From: Clostridiales bacterium
Lineage (GTDB): Bacteria > Bacillota > Clostridia > Oscillospirales > Oscillospiraceae
Length of the DNA: 58,230 nucleotides
Direction: 5' to 3'
Assembly (NCBI GenBank): GCA_021203325.1
Contig: JAJQBL010000090.1
Location: forward strand, 1 to 58,230
The position numbers and the translations under genes were made by a program. The notes below the pieces were generated by a model. The model was not told the DNA's origin and made no database searches. It was given only the letters and a program-made list of their open reading frames with translations. How positions within the stretch are numbered: the first letter of the stretch is position 1; every line of letters begins with the position of its first letter. Below, one piece after another: positions 3,496 to 57,089 of the stretch.

Positions 3496-4788
3496 TCACC
3501 CCTGGGGCGGCGCGGCGATTTGCCGGGACACCGCCAGGACAATCCCCATCTCCGCCAGCTGTATCGCCAGCGCCGTACCGCCGTAGCTGAAAAAAGGCAG
3601 GGAGATGCCGGTGGAGGGGATGACGTTCAGCACCACCGCGATGTTTAAAAACACCTGAGTGGCCAGCAGGGTGATGATGCCCACGATGAGCAGGGTGCCG
3701 AATTTGTCCTTGGCGTGGAGGGCCAGATAGTAGCCCCGGATGATCAGCAGGGCGAACAGCAGGATAATCATCACCGCGCCGATCAGCCCCAGCTCCTCGC
3801 AGATGATGGCAAAGATGTAGTCGTTCTGTTCCTCCGGCAGGTAGAGGTATTTCTGACGGCTCTGGCCGAATCCCAGGCCGGTCAGCCCGCCGGAGGCCAC
3901 CGCGTAGATGGATTGCAGCACCTGATAGCTCTTATCCGTGGGGTCCCACCACGGGTCCAGCCACGACTTGATACGGGTGCCGTTGTAGCCCCTGATTACC
4001 AGCACATAGTAGACGATGCCCGTCAGTCCCCCGGCCCCGGCGATGAACCAGCCGATGCGGACGCCTGCGGCGAACAGCACCGCCGCGGCCGCCGCCGCCA
4101 CCAGAATCATGCAGGACAGGTGGGGCTGCAATCCAATCAGCGCCAACACTACGATCAGGACAGCCATATAGGGAAGCAGTTCCTTTAAGTCGCTCCAGTA
4201 GAAAAACCACCGCAGCCCTTCCAGGGGCTGGCGGAGCCGCTTCTGGAAGGTGGGTACCCCCGGCCGCCGCTTGGACAGCCCCGCCGAGAAGAACAGGATG
4301 ACCCCCAGCTTGGCGATCTCCGAGGGCTGGAAAGTGGGGCCAACAACCAGGAGCATCCGCAGCCACCGCGTGGAATTGTTGGCGGTGACGCCCAGAGGCG
4401 TCTGAACCAGCGCCAGCAGGACGATGGAGGCCACCAGCACCGGCACGGACAGAATCCGCAGATACTGATAGTCCATCCGGGAAATCAGCAGCATGGCCAC
4501 AACGCCGATGACGGCGTAGATGGCCTGATGTTTAAAATAGTACATGGCGTCGCCGTAGGTGATAACGCCGTCCACCACCTTATAGCCCGCCGCCGAGTCA
4601 TACAGCGCCGCATAGGAGGATGCGGACAGCAGCATAATCAGCCCAACGGCCAGCAGCATCATGGTCAGCATCAAAAAGGGCAGGTCGATGGGCCCTCTGC
4701 GGAGCTTTTCCGCCTGGGTCAGGTCACGGCCGCGTTTCCGTTTGGCGCGGCTCTGCCTGGTTCGCACAGTGCTTGCCTGAGTTGCCAT
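3496..4788 (-). CDS. ftsW: SEDS peptidoglycan glycosyltransferase FtsW
   Basis: Multi-pass membrane glycosyltransferase that polymerises lipid II at the septum together with the partner transpeptidase FtsI. The 430 residues show a basic cytoplasmic tail (about 1-35), about ten hydrophobic segments, the family stretch RWLRMLLVVGPTFQPSEIAK in the middle and the ending LPFFSYGGTALAIQLAEMGI. The ATG at 4788 has AAAGGGG about 10 bases upstream. It lies between mraY and murG in the dcw operon, which favours FtsW over the elongation paralogue RodA. Confidence 0.94.
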   Translation of the reverse strand: MATQASTVRTRQSRAKRKRGRDLTQAEKLRRGPIDLPFLMLTMMLLAVGLIMLLSASSYAALYDSAAGYKVVDGVITYGDAMYYFKHQAIYAVIGVVAMLLISRMDYQYLRILSVPVLVASIVLLALVQTPLGVTANNSTRWLRMLLVVGPTFQPSEIAKLGVILFFSAGLSKRRPGVPTFQKRLRQPLEGLRWFFYWSDLKELLPYMAVLIVVLALIGLQPHLSCMILVAAAAAAVLFAAGVRIGWFIAGAGGLTGIVYYVLVIRGYNGTRIKSWLDPWWDPTDKSYQVLQSIYAVASGGLTGLGFGQSRQKYLYLPEEQNDYIFAIICEELGLIGAVMIILLFALLIIRGYYLALHAKDKFGTLLIVGIITLLATQVFLNIAVVLNVIPSTGISLPFFSYGGTALAIQLAEMGIVLAVSRQIAAPPQG

Positions 4789-4835: not shown

Positions 4836-5816
4836 TTAGTAGCGGAACATGACCCCCAGGAAGGCCAGCACGCAGGCCAGCAGGGTCACGCCGGAGAAGA
4901 CGGTGAACAGCTTCTCCTCGCTCCAGCCCCCCATCTCAAAGTGATGGTGCAGGGGGGCCATGCGGAAGATGCGCTTGCCGTGGGTGGCCTTGAAGTAGGT
5001 CACCTGAATGATGTCGCTCATGGTCTCACAGAGATAGATGATGCCCACCAGAATCAGAATCAGCGGCATATCCAGGCCAAAGGCCAGGCCGCAGACCGCG
5101 CCCCCCAGGAACAGGGAGCCGGTGTCCCCCATGAACACCTTGGCGGGGTGGAAGTTGTACACCAGGAATCCGGCCAGGCCCCCCAGCAGCGCGCCGGAGA
5201 ACACCCCCAGCTCCACCTTGCCCCACAGCAGGGAGACCACCAGGAAGAACAGCGCCACAGGCATGGTCACGCCGGTGGCCAGGCCGTCCACGCCGTCGGT
5301 GATGTTCACCGCATTGACGGTGCCCACCATGACGAAGGCCGCAAAGACCATGTACACCGGCCAGGGGATCGTGAAGCTGACGTTGGCGAATGGGATATAC
5401 AGGTCAGGGGTCAGGTAGCCGGTGTAGCGCAGCAGCACCACAAAGGCGATGGCCGCCGCCAGCTGCAGCAGGAACTTCTGGGGGGCGGTCAGCCCCTCGT
5501 TCTTGTGGTACTTCACCTTGCAGAAGTCGTCCACAAAGCCGATGGCCCCGAACACCAGGGCAAAGAGGTAGACAAAGAGGCCGCCGAAATCTCCCTGGAG
5601 GAAGTCGGTAAAGCCGCAGACCACCAGGGCAATCAAAATGCCCGCAATGAACATCAACCCGCCCATGGTGGGGGTGCCCTGTTTGGACATGTGCCAGGTG
5701 GGGCCGTCCTCCTTGATGGACTGGCCCGCCTTCATCCTCCGCAGCCAGGGGATGACCACCTTGCCCAGCAGGTAGGTCGCCACAAACCCGATCACAACAC
5801 TCACAATTGCTTTCAT
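4836..5816 (-). CDS. mraY: Phospho-MurNAc-pentapeptide transferase MraY
   Basis: Integral membrane enzyme that transfers phospho-MurNAc-pentapeptide to undecaprenyl phosphate to make lipid I. The 326 residues carry the hallmarks GTPTMGG (about residue 45), NAVNITDGVDGLATG, NFHPAKVFMGDTGSLFLGG and the C-terminal APLHHHFEMGGW histidine motif, with about ten membrane segments. The start at 5816 is chosen because AAGGAG lies about 9 bases upstream and the protein then begins MKAIVSVVIGF. The open frame runs further upstream, but that part is a shadow of the preceding gene. Confidence 0.96.
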   Translation of the reverse strand: MKAIVSVVIGFVATYLLGKVVIPWLRRMKAGQSIKEDGPTWHMSKQGTPTMGGLMFIAGILIALVVCGFTDFLQGDFGGLFVYLFALVFGAIGFVDDFCKVKYHKNEGLTAPQKFLLQLAAAIAFVVLLRYTGYLTPDLYIPFANVSFTIPWPVYMVFAAFVMVGTVNAVNITDGVDGLATGVTMPVALFFLVVSLLWGKVELGVFSGALLGGLAGFLVYNFHPAKVFMGDTGSLFLGGAVCGLAFGLDMPLILILVGIIYLCETMSDIIQVTYFKATHGKRIFRMAPLHHHFEMGGWSEEKLFTVFSGVTLLACVLAFLGVMFRY

Positions 5817-5860: not shown

Positions 5861-6916
5861 TCAATTTTGCCGTCTGTAACCGGCAGAGGCAGGCGCACAG
5901 GCCCGGGCCAAAAGCGCGTCCCAGTCCGCCCTCCCCGCATAGACGATGATGTCCTCCGGCTCCCCGCAGCAGCGGGCCGCCTCCACGGCGGCGGTCAGAT
6001 CCGGCCCGCCGGTACGGTCTCCCGCGGCAGGAATCAGGGCGCACCAGTCCGCCCCCTGCAACGCAACTCTCCGCAGCCTGCGCTCGGTTCCGCCGGGGGG
6101 CAGGGCCAGCACCAGCAGCACCCGGCCTTCTGCGGCCCTGCGGGCCGCCAGCAGCGCCGCCTCCAGCCGGCCCCCGGTGCAGCCGGTGTGAATCAGCTCA
6201 TCCGGGCCGTTGGCCCGGCGGCGCAGCTCCAGCACGCCGGGGGCACCCGGCGCGGCGGACACCGCCGCCGCCCCTTCCCGGAGGGTGTACCCCTCCAGCA
6301 GACCGCAGCCCAGGGCCGCCAGGGCCATGTAGAAGTCATAGCTCCCCGGCAGCGGCAGGGAGACCCTGGCGATGGCGGAATTTGTCACCGCCTCAAAGGT
6401 CATCCGGTCTTTCCCCAGACGGAGGTATCGGGCGTTCAAATCCGCCTCTCCCCGCTTCTCCGCGTAGGTCAGCCGTGGGCCGCCCCACTGGGCCGCCAGG
6501 GCGCGGACCCGGCTGTCGTCCAGGTTGGCCATCAGCAGGCGGCAGCAGCCCGTCAGGTAGCCCTTCAGGGCGTCGGTGTTGTCATGCTCCCGGAGGCCGC
6601 CCACCACGGCGGCCCGGCAGAGCAGCCCTCTGGCCCACCCCGCCGCAATCTGGCTGGGGGAAAGGGCCAGCACCACCCGCCGGCAGCCCTGGGCAGCCAG
6701 GGTGCGGAGCCGCGCCTCCAGTGTCTCCCGCCAAGTGGGCCACGCCGGGGCAGGCAGACGCCGCCCCCGCCAGAGGCAGTCCGCCTGGGTGATGAGGGCG
6801 GCCTCCCCGGGGCGGCCATACTCCAGCAGGTGCCAGATCAGCCGGGCGGTGCAGTCCGCCTCGGCGCCGCCGATGACGCAGTATAAATTGTCACTCGTCC
6901 ATGTCATTGTCAGCAT
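5861..6916 (-). CDS. Degenerate Mur-ligase-like protein (MurE-type, no ATP-binding loop)
   Basis: 351-residue protein in the dcw slot between ftsI and mraY where murE or murF usually lies. The middle and C-terminal parts look like a MurE central-plus-C-terminal ligase: LTYAEKRGEADLNARYLRL resembles the MurE segment after the acceptor domain, and PGSYDFYMALAALGCGLLEGY resembles its FNVYNVLAAIA helix. What is missing is striking. The UDP-binding N-terminal domain is absent. The GTNGKTT P-loop position reads GGAEADCT near residue 16. The C-terminal YAHTPDS motif reads HTGCTGG. No ATP-dependent ligase activity is expected; a structural, regulatory or decaying role is inferred. The start is uncertain (6916 or 6907), and the gene overlaps the ftsI end by about 20 bases. 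It could instead be a very divergent ligase. Confidence 0.65.
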   Translation of the reverse strand: MLTMTWTSDNLYCVIGGAEADCTARLIWHLLEYGRPGEAALITQADCLWRGRRLPAPAWPTWRETLEARLRTLAAQGCRRVVLALSPSQIAAGWARGLLCRAAVVGGLREHDNTDALKGYLTGCCRLLMANLDDSRVRALAAQWGGPRLTYAEKRGEADLNARYLRLGKDRMTFEAVTNSAIARVSLPLPGSYDFYMALAALGCGLLEGYTLREGAAAVSAAPGAPGVLELRRRANGPDELIHTGCTGGRLEAALLAARRAAEGRVLLVLALPPGGTERRLRRVALQGADWCALIPAAGDRTGGPDLTAAVEAARCCGEPEDIIVYAGRADWDALLARACAPASAGYRRQN

Positions 6917-9287
6917 AATCCACGATGGTGTCGTCGGAGAAGTAGACCGTTATGGTGGTGCCCCGGTCCACCAGCTCTCCCGCTTCGACGCTCTGCTTAT
7001 AGGCCAGGGTGCTGCTGGTATAGTAGCTGGAGGAGCCTGAGGCCACCATGTACAAATCCAGCTCGCCCAAAATCTCCAGGACGACGTCGGGGGATTTCCC
7101 CGTCAGATCGGGCATGGTGACCTGATCCTCCGGCACTTCCTCCCCCATGTACAGGATAACTTCGCTGCCGGAGGGCAGGCTGACACCGGTGGAGGGGATT
7201 TGGCCGGTGACGGTGCTGCCGTCCCCGACGATACGGTAGGTCAGGTTCTTCGCCGTCAGAATCTGCGACGCCGTGGCCTCGTCATAGCCGATGACCGTGG
7301 GCATGGAGACGCTGGCCCCGGAGAGGTCGTCTGAGGTGTACTCCTTGTCGAAGCCACGGTAGTCCAGAATGTCGGCAATCAGCTGCCCCACCAGAGGGGC
7401 CGCCATGTTGCCGCCGGAGATGTAGAGGCCATTGGTGCAGTAGTCGCTGCCCGGAGAGGCCACCTGGGGGGAATCCAGGGCCAGCAGGACAATGATCTCC
7501 GGGTCGTCCGCCGGGGCGAAACCCACGAAGGAGACCACATATTCATCGTCCACCAGCGTCTGAGAGGTGCCGGTCTTGCCGCCGATGCGGTAGCCCTCCA
7601 TATAGGCGTTCTTGCCGGTGTAGCTGGTGACCACGCCCTCCAGCAGGTTGGCCACCCGCTCGCTGGTCTCCTCGCTGATGACCTGGCGCACGGCGGTGCT
7701 GTCCGCCTGATAGGTGATGGTGCCGCTCTCGTCCACGATATGGTCCACCACATAGGGCTGCCGGAGGTAGCCGCCGTTCACCGCCGCGTTGATGGCGGTG
7801 ATCAGGGTGATGGGGGTGACGGTAAAACGCTGACCGAAGGAGGCGGTGGCCAGCTGGACGATGCCGAAGTTATCCTCGCTCCACACCACGCCCTGGCTCT
7901 CGCCGGGGACGTCGATGCCCGTGGTGGACATCAGCCCGAAGGCCTCCATGTACTCGTAGAAGGTATCCGTCCCCAGCTTCTGGCCGATGGTGATGAAGGC
8001 CGGGTTGCAGGAATTGCCCACCGCCTCCGCCAGGGTCTGGCTGCCGTGGCCGTACCGGTCGGAGCAGTAAATGGGAGAGGACCAGCCGCTGACCATGATG
8101 CTGCCGGTGCAGTTGAAGGTGGAGCTCTCCGACACCACCCCCTCCTCCAGGGCGGCGGCCAGAACCAGGCTCTTGAAGGTGGAGCCGGGCTCATAGGTGT
8201 CGTTCACCGCCTTGTTCCGCCACATGGTGTTCAGGGCTTCGCTCTCGGTGATCTCGCCGCTGGCGACCTCGCTTTGCAGCACGCTGTCAATGACGGTGCT
8301 GTAGTCGTTCAGGTCGTAGGTGGGGGAGCTGGCCATTCCCAGGATTGCGCCGGTGTCGCACTCCATGACGATGACGAACCCGCCGTTCTGCACATCGTTG
8401 GCCTCGATGCCCTCCTCCAGATACTTTTCACAGTAGGACTGAATGGTGGCGTCCAGGGTCAGGTAGACGTCGCTGCCGTCCTCGGCGTCATAGTAGTCCT
8501 GATAGAAGTTTTTCAGGTCGGTGCCCCGGTTGTTCTTCGCCGTCACCAGCAGCCCGGCGGTGCCGGAGAGGGTGTCCTCCAGCTGGGCCTCCAGGCCGTA
8601 GGCGCCGCCGCTGTCGTTGGTGAAGCCGATGACCTGGGCCGCCAGGGTGGAATAGGGATAGAACCGCTTGCTGTTGGGGGTCATGTAGATGCAGCCGGAC
8701 AGGCTGTACTCCGAAATCAGGCTGCGGATGCTTTCCGCCACGCTGTCGCTGACCTTGCTGGCCAGCTTCTTGTACTGGCTGGAGGTGTCCTCGCACTTTT
8801 CCACAATGCTCTCGGCGGTGACGTCCTCCAGAATCTCCTCCAGCCCCTGAGAGACGACCTCCACCACGTCAAAGTCATAGCTCTCCGCCTCCTCGGTGTA
8901 GGCGGCCTTGGTCTCCTCGTCCTCTGCCTCCGCCGCCTTTTCCAGGGCCTCCTGCCGGGCGGTGTCCAGCTCGCTCTGTTTCTCCAGAATGGCCTTGGGG
9001 GAGATGATCACGTCATAGGCCGTGGAGCTGATGGCCAGCACGTTGCCGCTGGCATCGTAAATGGAGCCGCGGTTGGCCGTGACGGAGAGCTCGCTGGTCT
9101 GCTGCTCCACCGCCTCCTCCTCCAGCTCCTCATGGCGCACGATCTGCCAGTAGTATAGCTGATACACCAGGGGAATAAACAGGATAACACCAAAAACGCA
9201 GAGAAGCACCACCGTCCTGCGAAAGATACGGCGTTTTGCCTCCCTGCCCTGATTGGTTTTTGCGCGTTTTGGTTGTTGTCTGCTCAT
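6891..9287 (-). CDS. ftsI: Septal transpeptidase FtsI/PBP2-type with PASTA domains (SpoVD-like)
   Basis: Class B penicillin-binding protein that cross-links septal peptidoglycan with FtsW. The 798 residues have a basic cytoplasmic tail, one membrane anchor (about 25-48), a PBP dimerisation domain with a long Glu/Ala-rich coiled insertion (about 100-190), then the transpeptidase: STFK with the catalytic Ser near 366, SNSCN (SxN) near 423 and KTGTS near 570. Two PASTA domains (about 660-798) follow. PASTA repeats on the dcw transpeptidase are typical of Firmicutes; whether this is the vegetative FtsI or the sporulation SpoVD cannot be told from sequence. The ATG at 9287 has GAGGGT about 5 bases upstream; an in-frame GTG at 9305 is less likely. 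Confidence 0.93.
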   Translation of the reverse strand: MSRQQPKRAKTNQGREAKRRIFRRTVVLLCVFGVILFIPLVYQLYYWQIVRHEELEEEAVEQQTSELSVTANRGSIYDASGNVLAISSTAYDVIISPKAILEKQSELDTARQEALEKAAEAEDEETKAAYTEEAESYDFDVVEVVSQGLEEILEDVTAESIVEKCEDTSSQYKKLASKVSDSVAESIRSLISEYSLSGCIYMTPNSKRFYPYSTLAAQVIGFTNDSGGAYGLEAQLEDTLSGTAGLLVTAKNNRGTDLKNFYQDYYDAEDGSDVYLTLDATIQSYCEKYLEEGIEANDVQNGGFVIVMECDTGAILGMASSPTYDLNDYSTVIDSVLQSEVASGEITESEALNTMWRNKAVNDTYEPGSTFKSLVLAAALEEGVVSESSTFNCTGSIMVSGWSSPIYCSDRYGHGSQTLAEAVGNSCNPAFITIGQKLGTDTFYEYMEAFGLMSTTGIDVPGESQGVVWSEDNFGIVQLATASFGQRFTVTPITLITAINAAVNGGYLRQPYVVDHIVDESGTITYQADSTAVRQVISEETSERVANLLEGVVTSYTGKNAYMEGYRIGGKTGTSQTLVDDEYVVSFVGFAPADDPEIIVLLALDSPQVASPGSDYCTNGLYISGGNMAAPLVGQLIADILDYRGFDKEYTSDDLSGASVSMPTVIGYDEATASQILTAKNLTYRIVGDGSTVTGQIPSTGVSLPSGSEVILYMGEEVPEDQVTMPDLTGKSPDVVLEILGELDLYMVASGSSSYYTSSTLAYKQSVEAGELVDRGTTITVYFSDDTIVDYADNDMDE

Positions 9288-9306
9288 AGTACCCTCGCTT
9301 TTCACA

Positions 9307-16441: not shown

Positions 16442-16922
16442 ATGCCACAGCTCCTTGTTCTGACCGGCGCAGCGGCGCCGCAAAACAGGAACTGCGGCGC
16501 CCTTGCCCCTCTTGGATTTATACTGTCAACTGAAAAGGTTGCTTTCCTTAGAAAAGGATAGATAAAGGAACTACGTTTTGCCCTCCGGGCGGGGCCTACT
16601 TTTCTTGCTCCGCCAAGAAAAGTAGCAAAAGAAGGCGGCTCAAGAGGGCCGCTGTGCGTCCCTCTTAAGAATCTCCCTCTATCCCGCTGGGCTTCGCGCT
16701 GTCCAATCTATAAGTGGTCTGTCCCGCCAGAGACGATGTGACTTTTCACGCACCAAAGCTGCCGCCGATGGCGGCTGGCAGGGATTGCCACCACGTCCCT
16801 GCCTTCGGCGGGACGGGTGACAATTTTATTGTCCTTTGATTGCTGAAATCTGACTGTACGGCTATGATACTTCTCTCAACTCAGGATAGAGTGCATCTCA
16901 GGCTGTCTGTTACGGTCTGTTC
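16442..16922. other. 480-bp non-coding region with strong hairpins
   Basis: No convincing gene. It contains a perfect 12-bp inverted repeat (16596-16607 with 16614-16625, 6-base loop) followed by purine-rich sequence, and a second region of short inverted repeats around 16765-16820. The CTACTTTTCTTG...CAAGAAAAGTAG hairpin resembles dispersed intergenic repeats I associate with Oscillospiraceae genomes; that link is from memory. Only one copy is present in this window. Confidence 0.5.
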
Positions 16923-42550: not shown

Positions 42551-42590
42551 AAAAAGGCCGCAGGCGCTCAAAGAGAGCGACGCCTGCGGC
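42551..42590 (-). terminator. Riboswitch-linked intrinsic terminator before thiE
   Basis: A 10-bp GC-rich stem (42557-42566 with 42581-42590) followed on the minus strand by five T (A-run 42551-42555), placed between the riboswitch and thiE. Ligand-induced termination is the likely mode of control. Confidence 0.88.
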
Positions 42591-42597
42591 ATCGAAA

Positions 42598-42690
42598 AAA
42601 CTCCCTACGTTGGCATTATCCAAATCAGGTTCTCCGGGTCACGGCAGTACAGCCGACTCTCAGCCCGCTCCGGCGAGCTCCCCGCGTATC
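42598..42690 (-). ncRNA. TPP (THI-box) riboswitch
   Basis: On the minus strand the conserved elements appear in order: GGGGAGCT, GGGCTGAGAG, GACCC, GAACCTGAT, GGATAATGCC and CGTAGGGA (near 42602-42609). This is the thiamine pyrophosphate aptamer. It lies upstream of thiE-thiD-cytX and is followed by an intrinsic terminator. Confidence 0.96.
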
Positions 42691-42804
42691 ATTTAATTCT
42701 AATCTTTACTATACGCCCTTTCCCGGCAAATTGCAAGGGGAGATGAATAATTTCTGCCGGGCGGGGGCGTTTGTTCCTCAGGCAGGGAAACAACCTTTGC
42801 TTCA

Positions 42805-56479: not shown

Positions 56480-56556
56480 TTGGTGCTCCAGCGGGGATTC
56501 GAACCCCGGACACCCTGCTTAAAAGGCAGGTGCTCTGCCGACTGAGCTACTGGGGC
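56480..56556 (-). tRNA. tRNA-Lys (TTT)
   Basis: Cloverleaf with anticodon loop CTTTTAA and encoded CCA. The acceptor stem has a C3-A70 mismatch where a T would pair. Last gene of a five-tRNA transcript. Confidence 0.93.
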
Positions 56557-56598
56557 GTGGAAGCACGCACTATGACAACGGGGAACCCCGCAATGTTC

Positions 56599-56673
56599 TG
56601 GCTGGGATGGCGGGATTCGAACCCACGGATAAAGGAGTCAAAGTCCTTTGCCTTACCACTTGGCGACATCCCA
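56599..56673 (-). tRNA. tRNA-Gln (TTG)
   Basis: Cloverleaf starting TGGGATG, typical of tRNA-Gln, with anticodon loop CTTTGAC and encoded CCA. Confidence 0.94.
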
Positions 56674-56755
56674 TTGTCCTTTCTCACAGAAGAAAGCCAG
56701 ATCGGAAGAACATACGCAACCGCTCTGGCCTTGAACACTTCCAAGAGGTAATAAA

Positions 56756-56833
<78 letters not shown>

Positions 56834-56935
56834 ATAAGAAGATGATACTGCTTGCAATCTCTGCCGGCCTGAGCAGCGGAAGGGGGGCTGCAGGGAGCAA
56901 ACAGAATTGCTCACTGCACATCCCGAGGCCAGGCA

Positions 56936-57012
<77 letters not shown>

Positions 57013-57015
57013 ATA

Positions 57016-57089
57016 TGGAGCGGGTGATGGGAATCGAACCCACGCGACCAGCTTGGAAGGCTGGGATTCTACCATTGAACTACACCCGC
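57016..57089 (-). tRNA. tRNA-Gly (TCC)
   Basis: Cloverleaf with anticodon loop CTTCCAA and encoded CCA. First gene of the tRNA transcript, three bases before tRNA-Arg. Confidence 0.95.

Follow-up and report, generated by a model that had tools for sequence, protein, structure and literature searches.

The window, that is, the whole stretch of 58,230 nucleotides analysed here, carries an intact open reading frame of 351 amino acids on the minus strand at 5861..6916 (stop codon counted in), in the slot between ftsI and mraY. The upstream neighbour, at 6891..9305 on the same minus strand, encodes an ftsI/spoVD-type penicillin-binding protein whose orthologues are likewise placed in relatives; the downstream neighbour is mraY (4836..5816, minus strand), whose ATG at 5814-5816 lies 44 nt past the stop of the frame. 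The end of ftsI and the start of the frame overlap by 26 nt (6891..6916, minus strand), an arrangement suggestive of translational coupling, and the description in the earlier note of a 351-residue frame in a tight operon overlapping ftsI was thus confirmed. That note also reported that the cluster in the window is without murD, murE and murF, and this absence was borne out. On other contigs of the same genome, murD (C147), murF (C130), murC (C47) and FolC could be assigned from sequence. From the reading frame, its homology and the selection acting on it, we annotate the product as a probable MurE-derived pseudoenzyme and refer to it and its orthologues as the relic, the window protein being of type A as defined below.

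The ftsI-mraY slot was read in all 32 genomes of the genus, that of the window included. A relic was found in 17 of them and occurs in two forms: type A, with 348-351 amino acids and 81-94% identity, in seven genomes (G000, G002, G004, G017, G018, G021 and G029), and type B, with 376-387 amino acids and 35-40% identity to the window protein, in ten. Seen from the window protein, the same slot is occupied by six close and ten distant homologues, and in both types the beginning of the relic frame lies within the end of ftsI. Two type A genomes, G018 and G029, have the relic divided between two contigs, with one end by ftsI and the other by mraY; the contig breaks fall inside the relic near residues 65-96 (G018, C138/C8; G029, C283/C63). 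The frame was intact in all 15 full-length relics. These relics share their ends within each type and are complete inside contigs, and on these grounds a normal MurE cut short by a frameshift or by the assembly was rejected.

The remaining 15 genomes are relic-free, with ftsI directly adjoining mraY. The genus can do without the relic, as is evident from G025 and from a sister clade of 14 relic-free genomes. By eye, a promoter-like stretch (approximately TGTG-TAT, with GAAA upstream) was seen ahead of mraY in most relic-free genomes (L101-L112, L114 and L115), and none was seen in L113. In three relic-free loci (L105, L106 and L108) the FtsI match came in two pieces about 180-215 nt apart, suggesting an insertion.

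Beyond the genus, a full-length MurE occupies the ftsI-mraY slot of the sister genus in 4/4 loci read (L124-L127). A family survey of 300 genomes from 106 genera gave no complete short form outside the genus among the matches listed, where three short frames start 13-123 nt from a contig end and the others are full-length. A scan of named genomes found eight loci in six 'Clostridiales bacterium' metagenome-assembled genomes; the window protein was the only query, so that only type A relatives were recovered. Absence from relatives, which the earlier note had regarded as evidence against its reading, was therefore found in part: the relic is present in 17 of the 32 genomes, all within one clade, and is missing from the other 15 and, among the matches listed, from outside the genus.

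Searches with the window protein found MurE (TIGR01085) as the best NCBIfam match (5.8e-8, residues 128-270), at 19 bits, far below the curated cut-off of 257.3 bits; two type B proteins scored 190.5 and 218.4 bits, both also below that cut-off. In Pfam, the window protein matched Mur_ligase_M below the cut-off (E=0.0056, residues 128-204), and neither PF01225 nor Mur_ligase_C was among its matches. All three type B proteins scanned matched Mur_ligase_C and exceeded the cut-offs of PF02875 and PF08245. The claim that the middle and end of the protein resemble MurE consequently holds, weakly, for the middle of the window protein alone, and for the end only by way of type B and its Mur_ligase_C matches. 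The UDP-binding domain PF01225 was absent from the five relics scanned and present in both full-length MurEs scanned, in agreement with the claim that this N-terminal domain is missing.

The best PDB sequence match of the window protein was a plant MurE-like chain (E 0.01). A profile of the 15-member relic family matched a solved MurE PDB chain at 3.5e-39 over positions 10-374, a strength that owes partly to the type B members. AlphaFold2, run with a 22-sequence alignment, gave a model of alternating strands and helices with a mean pLDDT of 84.1 and a pTM of 0.80; as the alignment included true MurEs, the model is not independent evidence, and the profile match is the stronger evidence for homology to MurE. 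Profile homology, the shared operon slot and the tree described below together indicate that the relic is, at the level of sequence, a descendant of MurE, and the profile match argues against an unrelated fold.

Residues were counted in 17 dcw MurEs, 28 dapF-linked MurEs, 10 type B rows and 5 type A rows, the G018 and G029 relics being excluded from both the counts and the tree; five of the 22 order- and family-level MurE loci, which failed a motif filter, were likewise omitted from both. The catalytic roles of the Mg glutamate, DHLD, the YAH histidine and other such positions belong to established MurE biochemistry. The Mg glutamate, the second serine of EVSS, DHLD and the YAH histidine were altered or missing in 15/15 relics and conserved in 45/45 enzymes. 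Alignment placed GGAEADCT (residues 16-23; 6848..6871, minus strand), the former Walker A loop, opposite GTNGKTTT, with GKT replaced by EAD, and HTGCTGG (residues 243-249; 6170..6190, minus strand) opposite the MurE motif YAHTPDA, which confirms both motif replacements reported in the earlier note.

The two types differ in what they retain. The GKT of Walker A reads EAD in all five type A rows and is kept in all ten type B rows, which also keep the D and R of GGDRD and the D and R of the DNPR motif (as DDPR). Type A keeps the R of GGDRD and the R of TKRP, and the DNPR stretch is gone in 5/5 rows. At the position of the carbamylated lysine, beside a gapped region, a lysine is present in 5/5 type A rows (K118 of the window protein) and in none of the ten type B rows. 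Because K118 aligns with the carbamylated lysine, not every active-site position is altered, and the type A lysine and the type B Walker A motif leave room for a residual ligand-binding or catalytic function that the relic may still have.

By the Nei-Gojobori method, dN/dS of the type A relic was 0.18-0.34 (15 pairs from six of the seven genomes, the split G029 relic and the N-terminal piece of G018 being omitted), beside 0.07-0.17 for ftsI, 0.05-0.12 for mraY and 0.09-0.25 for ftsL of the same clade. The type B ratio was 0.055-0.35 in the 36 of 45 pairs that were unsaturated (nine G014 pairs, with dS of at least 1.5 or undefined, were omitted), which is within the range of its neighbours (ftsI 0.05-0.39, mraY 0.02-0.32, ftsL 0.05-0.61). 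The dS of the relic was comparable to, or a little higher than, the values of the adjacent genes. Bootstrap ranges for four type A pairs lay between 0.11 and 0.42. When the five full-length type A genes were pooled, omega was 0.248 in the true frame and 0.45-2.3 in the other five frames, all of which hold stops (1 to 13 per sequence). A chance frame in GC-rich DNA was also considered, and antisense open reading frames do occur in this region, but it was rejected on the stops and omega values of the other frames.

Codon-likelihood omega was 0.064-0.137 in nine relic pairs, and omega=1 was rejected in all nine (LRT 64-186, p<=1.3e-15). By this method type A evolves at 0.09-0.14, against 0.015-0.034 for true MurE (seven pairs), and the pace of type A is about that of ftsL (0.046 and 0.118 in two pairs). 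The relic is clearly under purifying selection, though less constrained than a working MurE. The earlier note had named a dN/dS near 1 as the sign of decay; no such value was obtained by counting or by likelihood, and decay to a pseudogene was rejected, with frames unbroken in 15/15 relics and omega well below 1. Together, the motif losses, the dN/dS values and the occurrence in 17 of 32 genomes within one clade sustain its reading of a MurE relative retained by selection and probably non-catalytic, that is, a probable pseudoenzyme.

Among seven segments of the pooled type A genes, omega was lowest (0.08) at residues 151-200 (6317..6466, minus strand), the second half of the middle domain, a value that overstates the constraint because dS is high there (0.60 versus 0.21-0.36 elsewhere, with dN 0.051 versus 0.055-0.139). 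The same residues are rich in positions common to types A and B, which is independent support for constraint.

A shared-domain tree was built from 60 rows, comprising 15 relics, 28 dapF-linked MurEs and 17 'dcw' MurEs, the last located no more than about 3 kb from mraY. The 15 relics are set apart from all enzymes by a long branch (support 100), and the 28 dapF-linked MurEs form a separate clade, also with support 100; the point at which the relics attach among the MurEs is not fixed. Type A and most of type B group next to each other, the G014 relic falls outside the two, and type A most likely arose from a B-like ancestor. In a six-protein tree of the genus, the 14 relic-free genomes and the outgroup were separated with support 91 from the other 18 genomes, a clade where only G025 is without the relic.

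The TIGR01085 cut-off was exceeded in 29 of the 32 genomes, the exceptions being G000, G008 and G030, and a full-length MurE encoded elsewhere was found in 16/17 relic bearers and 13/15 relic-free genomes. In all 28 loci read (of 29), 16 of them from relic bearers, murE lies behind dapF in the same orientation, with the two genes overlapping or at most about 250 nt apart, and this locus is present in 6/6 other type A genomes. In the window's own assembly, which is 99.5% complete, a protein search found no full-length murE (11/11 candidates scored), and dapF-murE DNA had no real match (40/196 candidates scored). Repeats lie on either side of the dapF-murE locus in G004; dozens of contigs of the window genome carry them as well, and they dominate the comparison of this locus with that genome (40/329 candidates scored), the longer matches being about 100-250 nt and 75-94% identical. 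Because repeats flank the locus of this relative and dapF DNA, too, had no real match among the candidates scored, the lack of dapF-murE is probably an assembly gap. The puzzle of a dcw cluster with no MurE thus appears mostly resolved by the intact dapF-linked MurE of relatives. Copies of the dispersed repeat were noted at 16697-16864 of the window and, in L064, at 1-391 and 3594-3750, the flanks of the G004 dapF-murE locus.

MurE is essential and dcw gene order is widely conserved, while it is debated why the Mur ligases have remained in the cluster. Compared with MurE (TIGR01085; PF01225, PF08245 and PF02875), the relic is homologous, takes the same operon slot and has its middle and C-terminal parts in the same order; it differs in having no PF01225, in the loss of key catalytic residues and in scoring under the curated MurE cut-offs. 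A precedent is PAP11 of plants, another MurE homologue, which belongs to the plastid RNA polymerase without a catalytic role there and has a solved PDB chain named PAP11, MurE-like; it has 768 amino acids and serves plastid transcription, whereas the relic has 351 and belongs to a bacterial wall operon. Another Mur-ligase body without the UDP-binding domain is MurT, which forms a lipid II amidase with GatD. The MurT C-terminal domain was not among the Pfam matches of the five relics scanned, and gatD is adjacent in that system, whereas the neighbours of the relic are ftsI and mraY, with no gatD.

In Bordetella, MurG binds a MurE-MurF fusion and MurE-family proteins join MurG complexes (PMC6420597), which makes a protein-binding role plausible for the relic; the MurE part there is an active enzyme, unlike the relic. 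Pseudoenzymes are described in two reviews (PMC5106787, PMC10211241) as enzyme homologues without conserved catalytic motifs. The relic shares with them descent from an enzyme family and loss of catalytic motifs, is under purifying selection, and would have a non-catalytic role. In literature searched by title and the start of the abstract, with subscription papers mostly outside the scope, no description of a bacterial MurE pseudoenzyme was found; nor was a Mur ligase case found among the pseudoenzyme literature by title or abstract start (two of the searches gave the best 8 of 11 and the best 10 of 78).

These data are brought together in an explanation to which we give an even chance, namely that the relic is a pseudoenzyme derived from the former operon MurE, catalysis having moved to the dapF-linked MurE, and that its Mur-ligase body now binds proteins as a scaffold or regulator. 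We infer the order of events, the inactivity of the relic, its binding partner and its scaffold or regulatory role as follows. The ligase reaction would have passed, already in the genus ancestor, to another full-length MurE encoded beside dapF, since this gene is found in 29 of the 32 genomes. One clade would then have lost the dcw copy of murE by deletion; in the other it would have lost the UDP-substrate domain and catalytic residues, yet been kept, first as type B with the P-loop and DDPR still present. On the branch of the window, type B would have become type A by loss of the P-loop and DDPR as well. Produced together with FtsI and MraY, the relic may dock either on the precursor machinery at the membrane (MraY, MurG and FtsI) or on the remaining Mur ligases, and help to hold or regulate the complex in question. 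A protein-binding role seems most likely because types A and B share the Mur-ligase body while their ligand-site motifs differ, and the coupling of the relic gene to ftsI and mraY suggests the MraY/FtsI side of the pathway. Counted against this explanation are the lack of the relic in G025 and the 14-genome sister clade, the faster evolution of type A than of true MurE, and the type A lysine and type B Walker A noted above. More tentatively, and with somewhat more doubt than belief, a Mur-ligase pseudoenzyme may here have become a subunit dedicated to a structural or regulatory task in lipid II synthesis and the septal machinery, with a non-catalytic function of the MurE body separable from ligation. 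A lineage in which catalysis had moved and a dead MurE was kept in dcw would amount to a separation-of-function experiment made by nature; binding of the relic to MraY, MurG, FtsI or MurF, if it occurs, would isolate the scaffolding proposed for Mur ligases from catalysis.

Other readings account for parts of the evidence. The retention in type B (10/10 rows) of GKT and of the D and R of both GGDRD and DNPR, along with PF02875 and PF08245 scores above the cut-offs in 3/3 proteins scanned, would suit a ligand sensor or regulator that binds ATP and perhaps diaminopimelate through Walker A and DDPR and signals precursor supply, type A having later become ligand-free. Type A is still selected without GKT and the DNPR stretch (5/5 rows), so that ligand binding is not the function shared by the two types, and we regard a sensor as rather unlikely. 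The relic may instead join the dapF-linked MurE in a mixed complex and modulate it, since pseudoenzymes can regulate active relatives (reviews PMC5106787 and PMC10211241) and the relic and a full-length MurE co-occur in 16/17 relic genomes; this too is unlikely, because the dapF-linked MurE belongs to a different branch and occurs about as often where the relic is absent (13/15).

It is quite improbable that the frame is an operon spacer, in which only ftsI-to-mraY translation matters and the protein is irrelevant. The overlap with ftsI in both types and the promoter-like motif seen by eye ahead of mraY in most relic-free genomes would fit such a spacer, whereas selection at the amino-acid level and lengths held at 348-351 (type A) and 376-387 (type B) amino acids speak against it. 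Slow pseudogenisation of a redundant MurE would explain the stepwise loss of motifs, an evolution faster than that of true MurE and the loss in G025, but is very unlikely given frames intact in 15/15 relics and the rejection of omega=1 in 9/9 pairs (p<=1.3e-15). Hardly credible is a window organism truly without MurE, in which the relic and other enzymes would attach the third residue through a changed mechanism; although no full-length murE was found in the 99.5% complete assembly, dapF-murE is present in 6/6 other type A genomes, and dapF DNA was also unmatched (40/196 candidates scored) and repeats flank the locus of a relative, as an assembly gap predicts. A pseudoenzyme with a protein-binding Mur-ligase body remains the reading we prefer.

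Elsewhere in the window, the frames of ftsQ (63-1001) and murA (871-2301) overlap by 131 nt, and murA seems to carry an unusual C-terminal extension. A TPP riboswitch is located on the minus strand at 42586-42694, and a cluster of five tRNA genes at 56481-57089.
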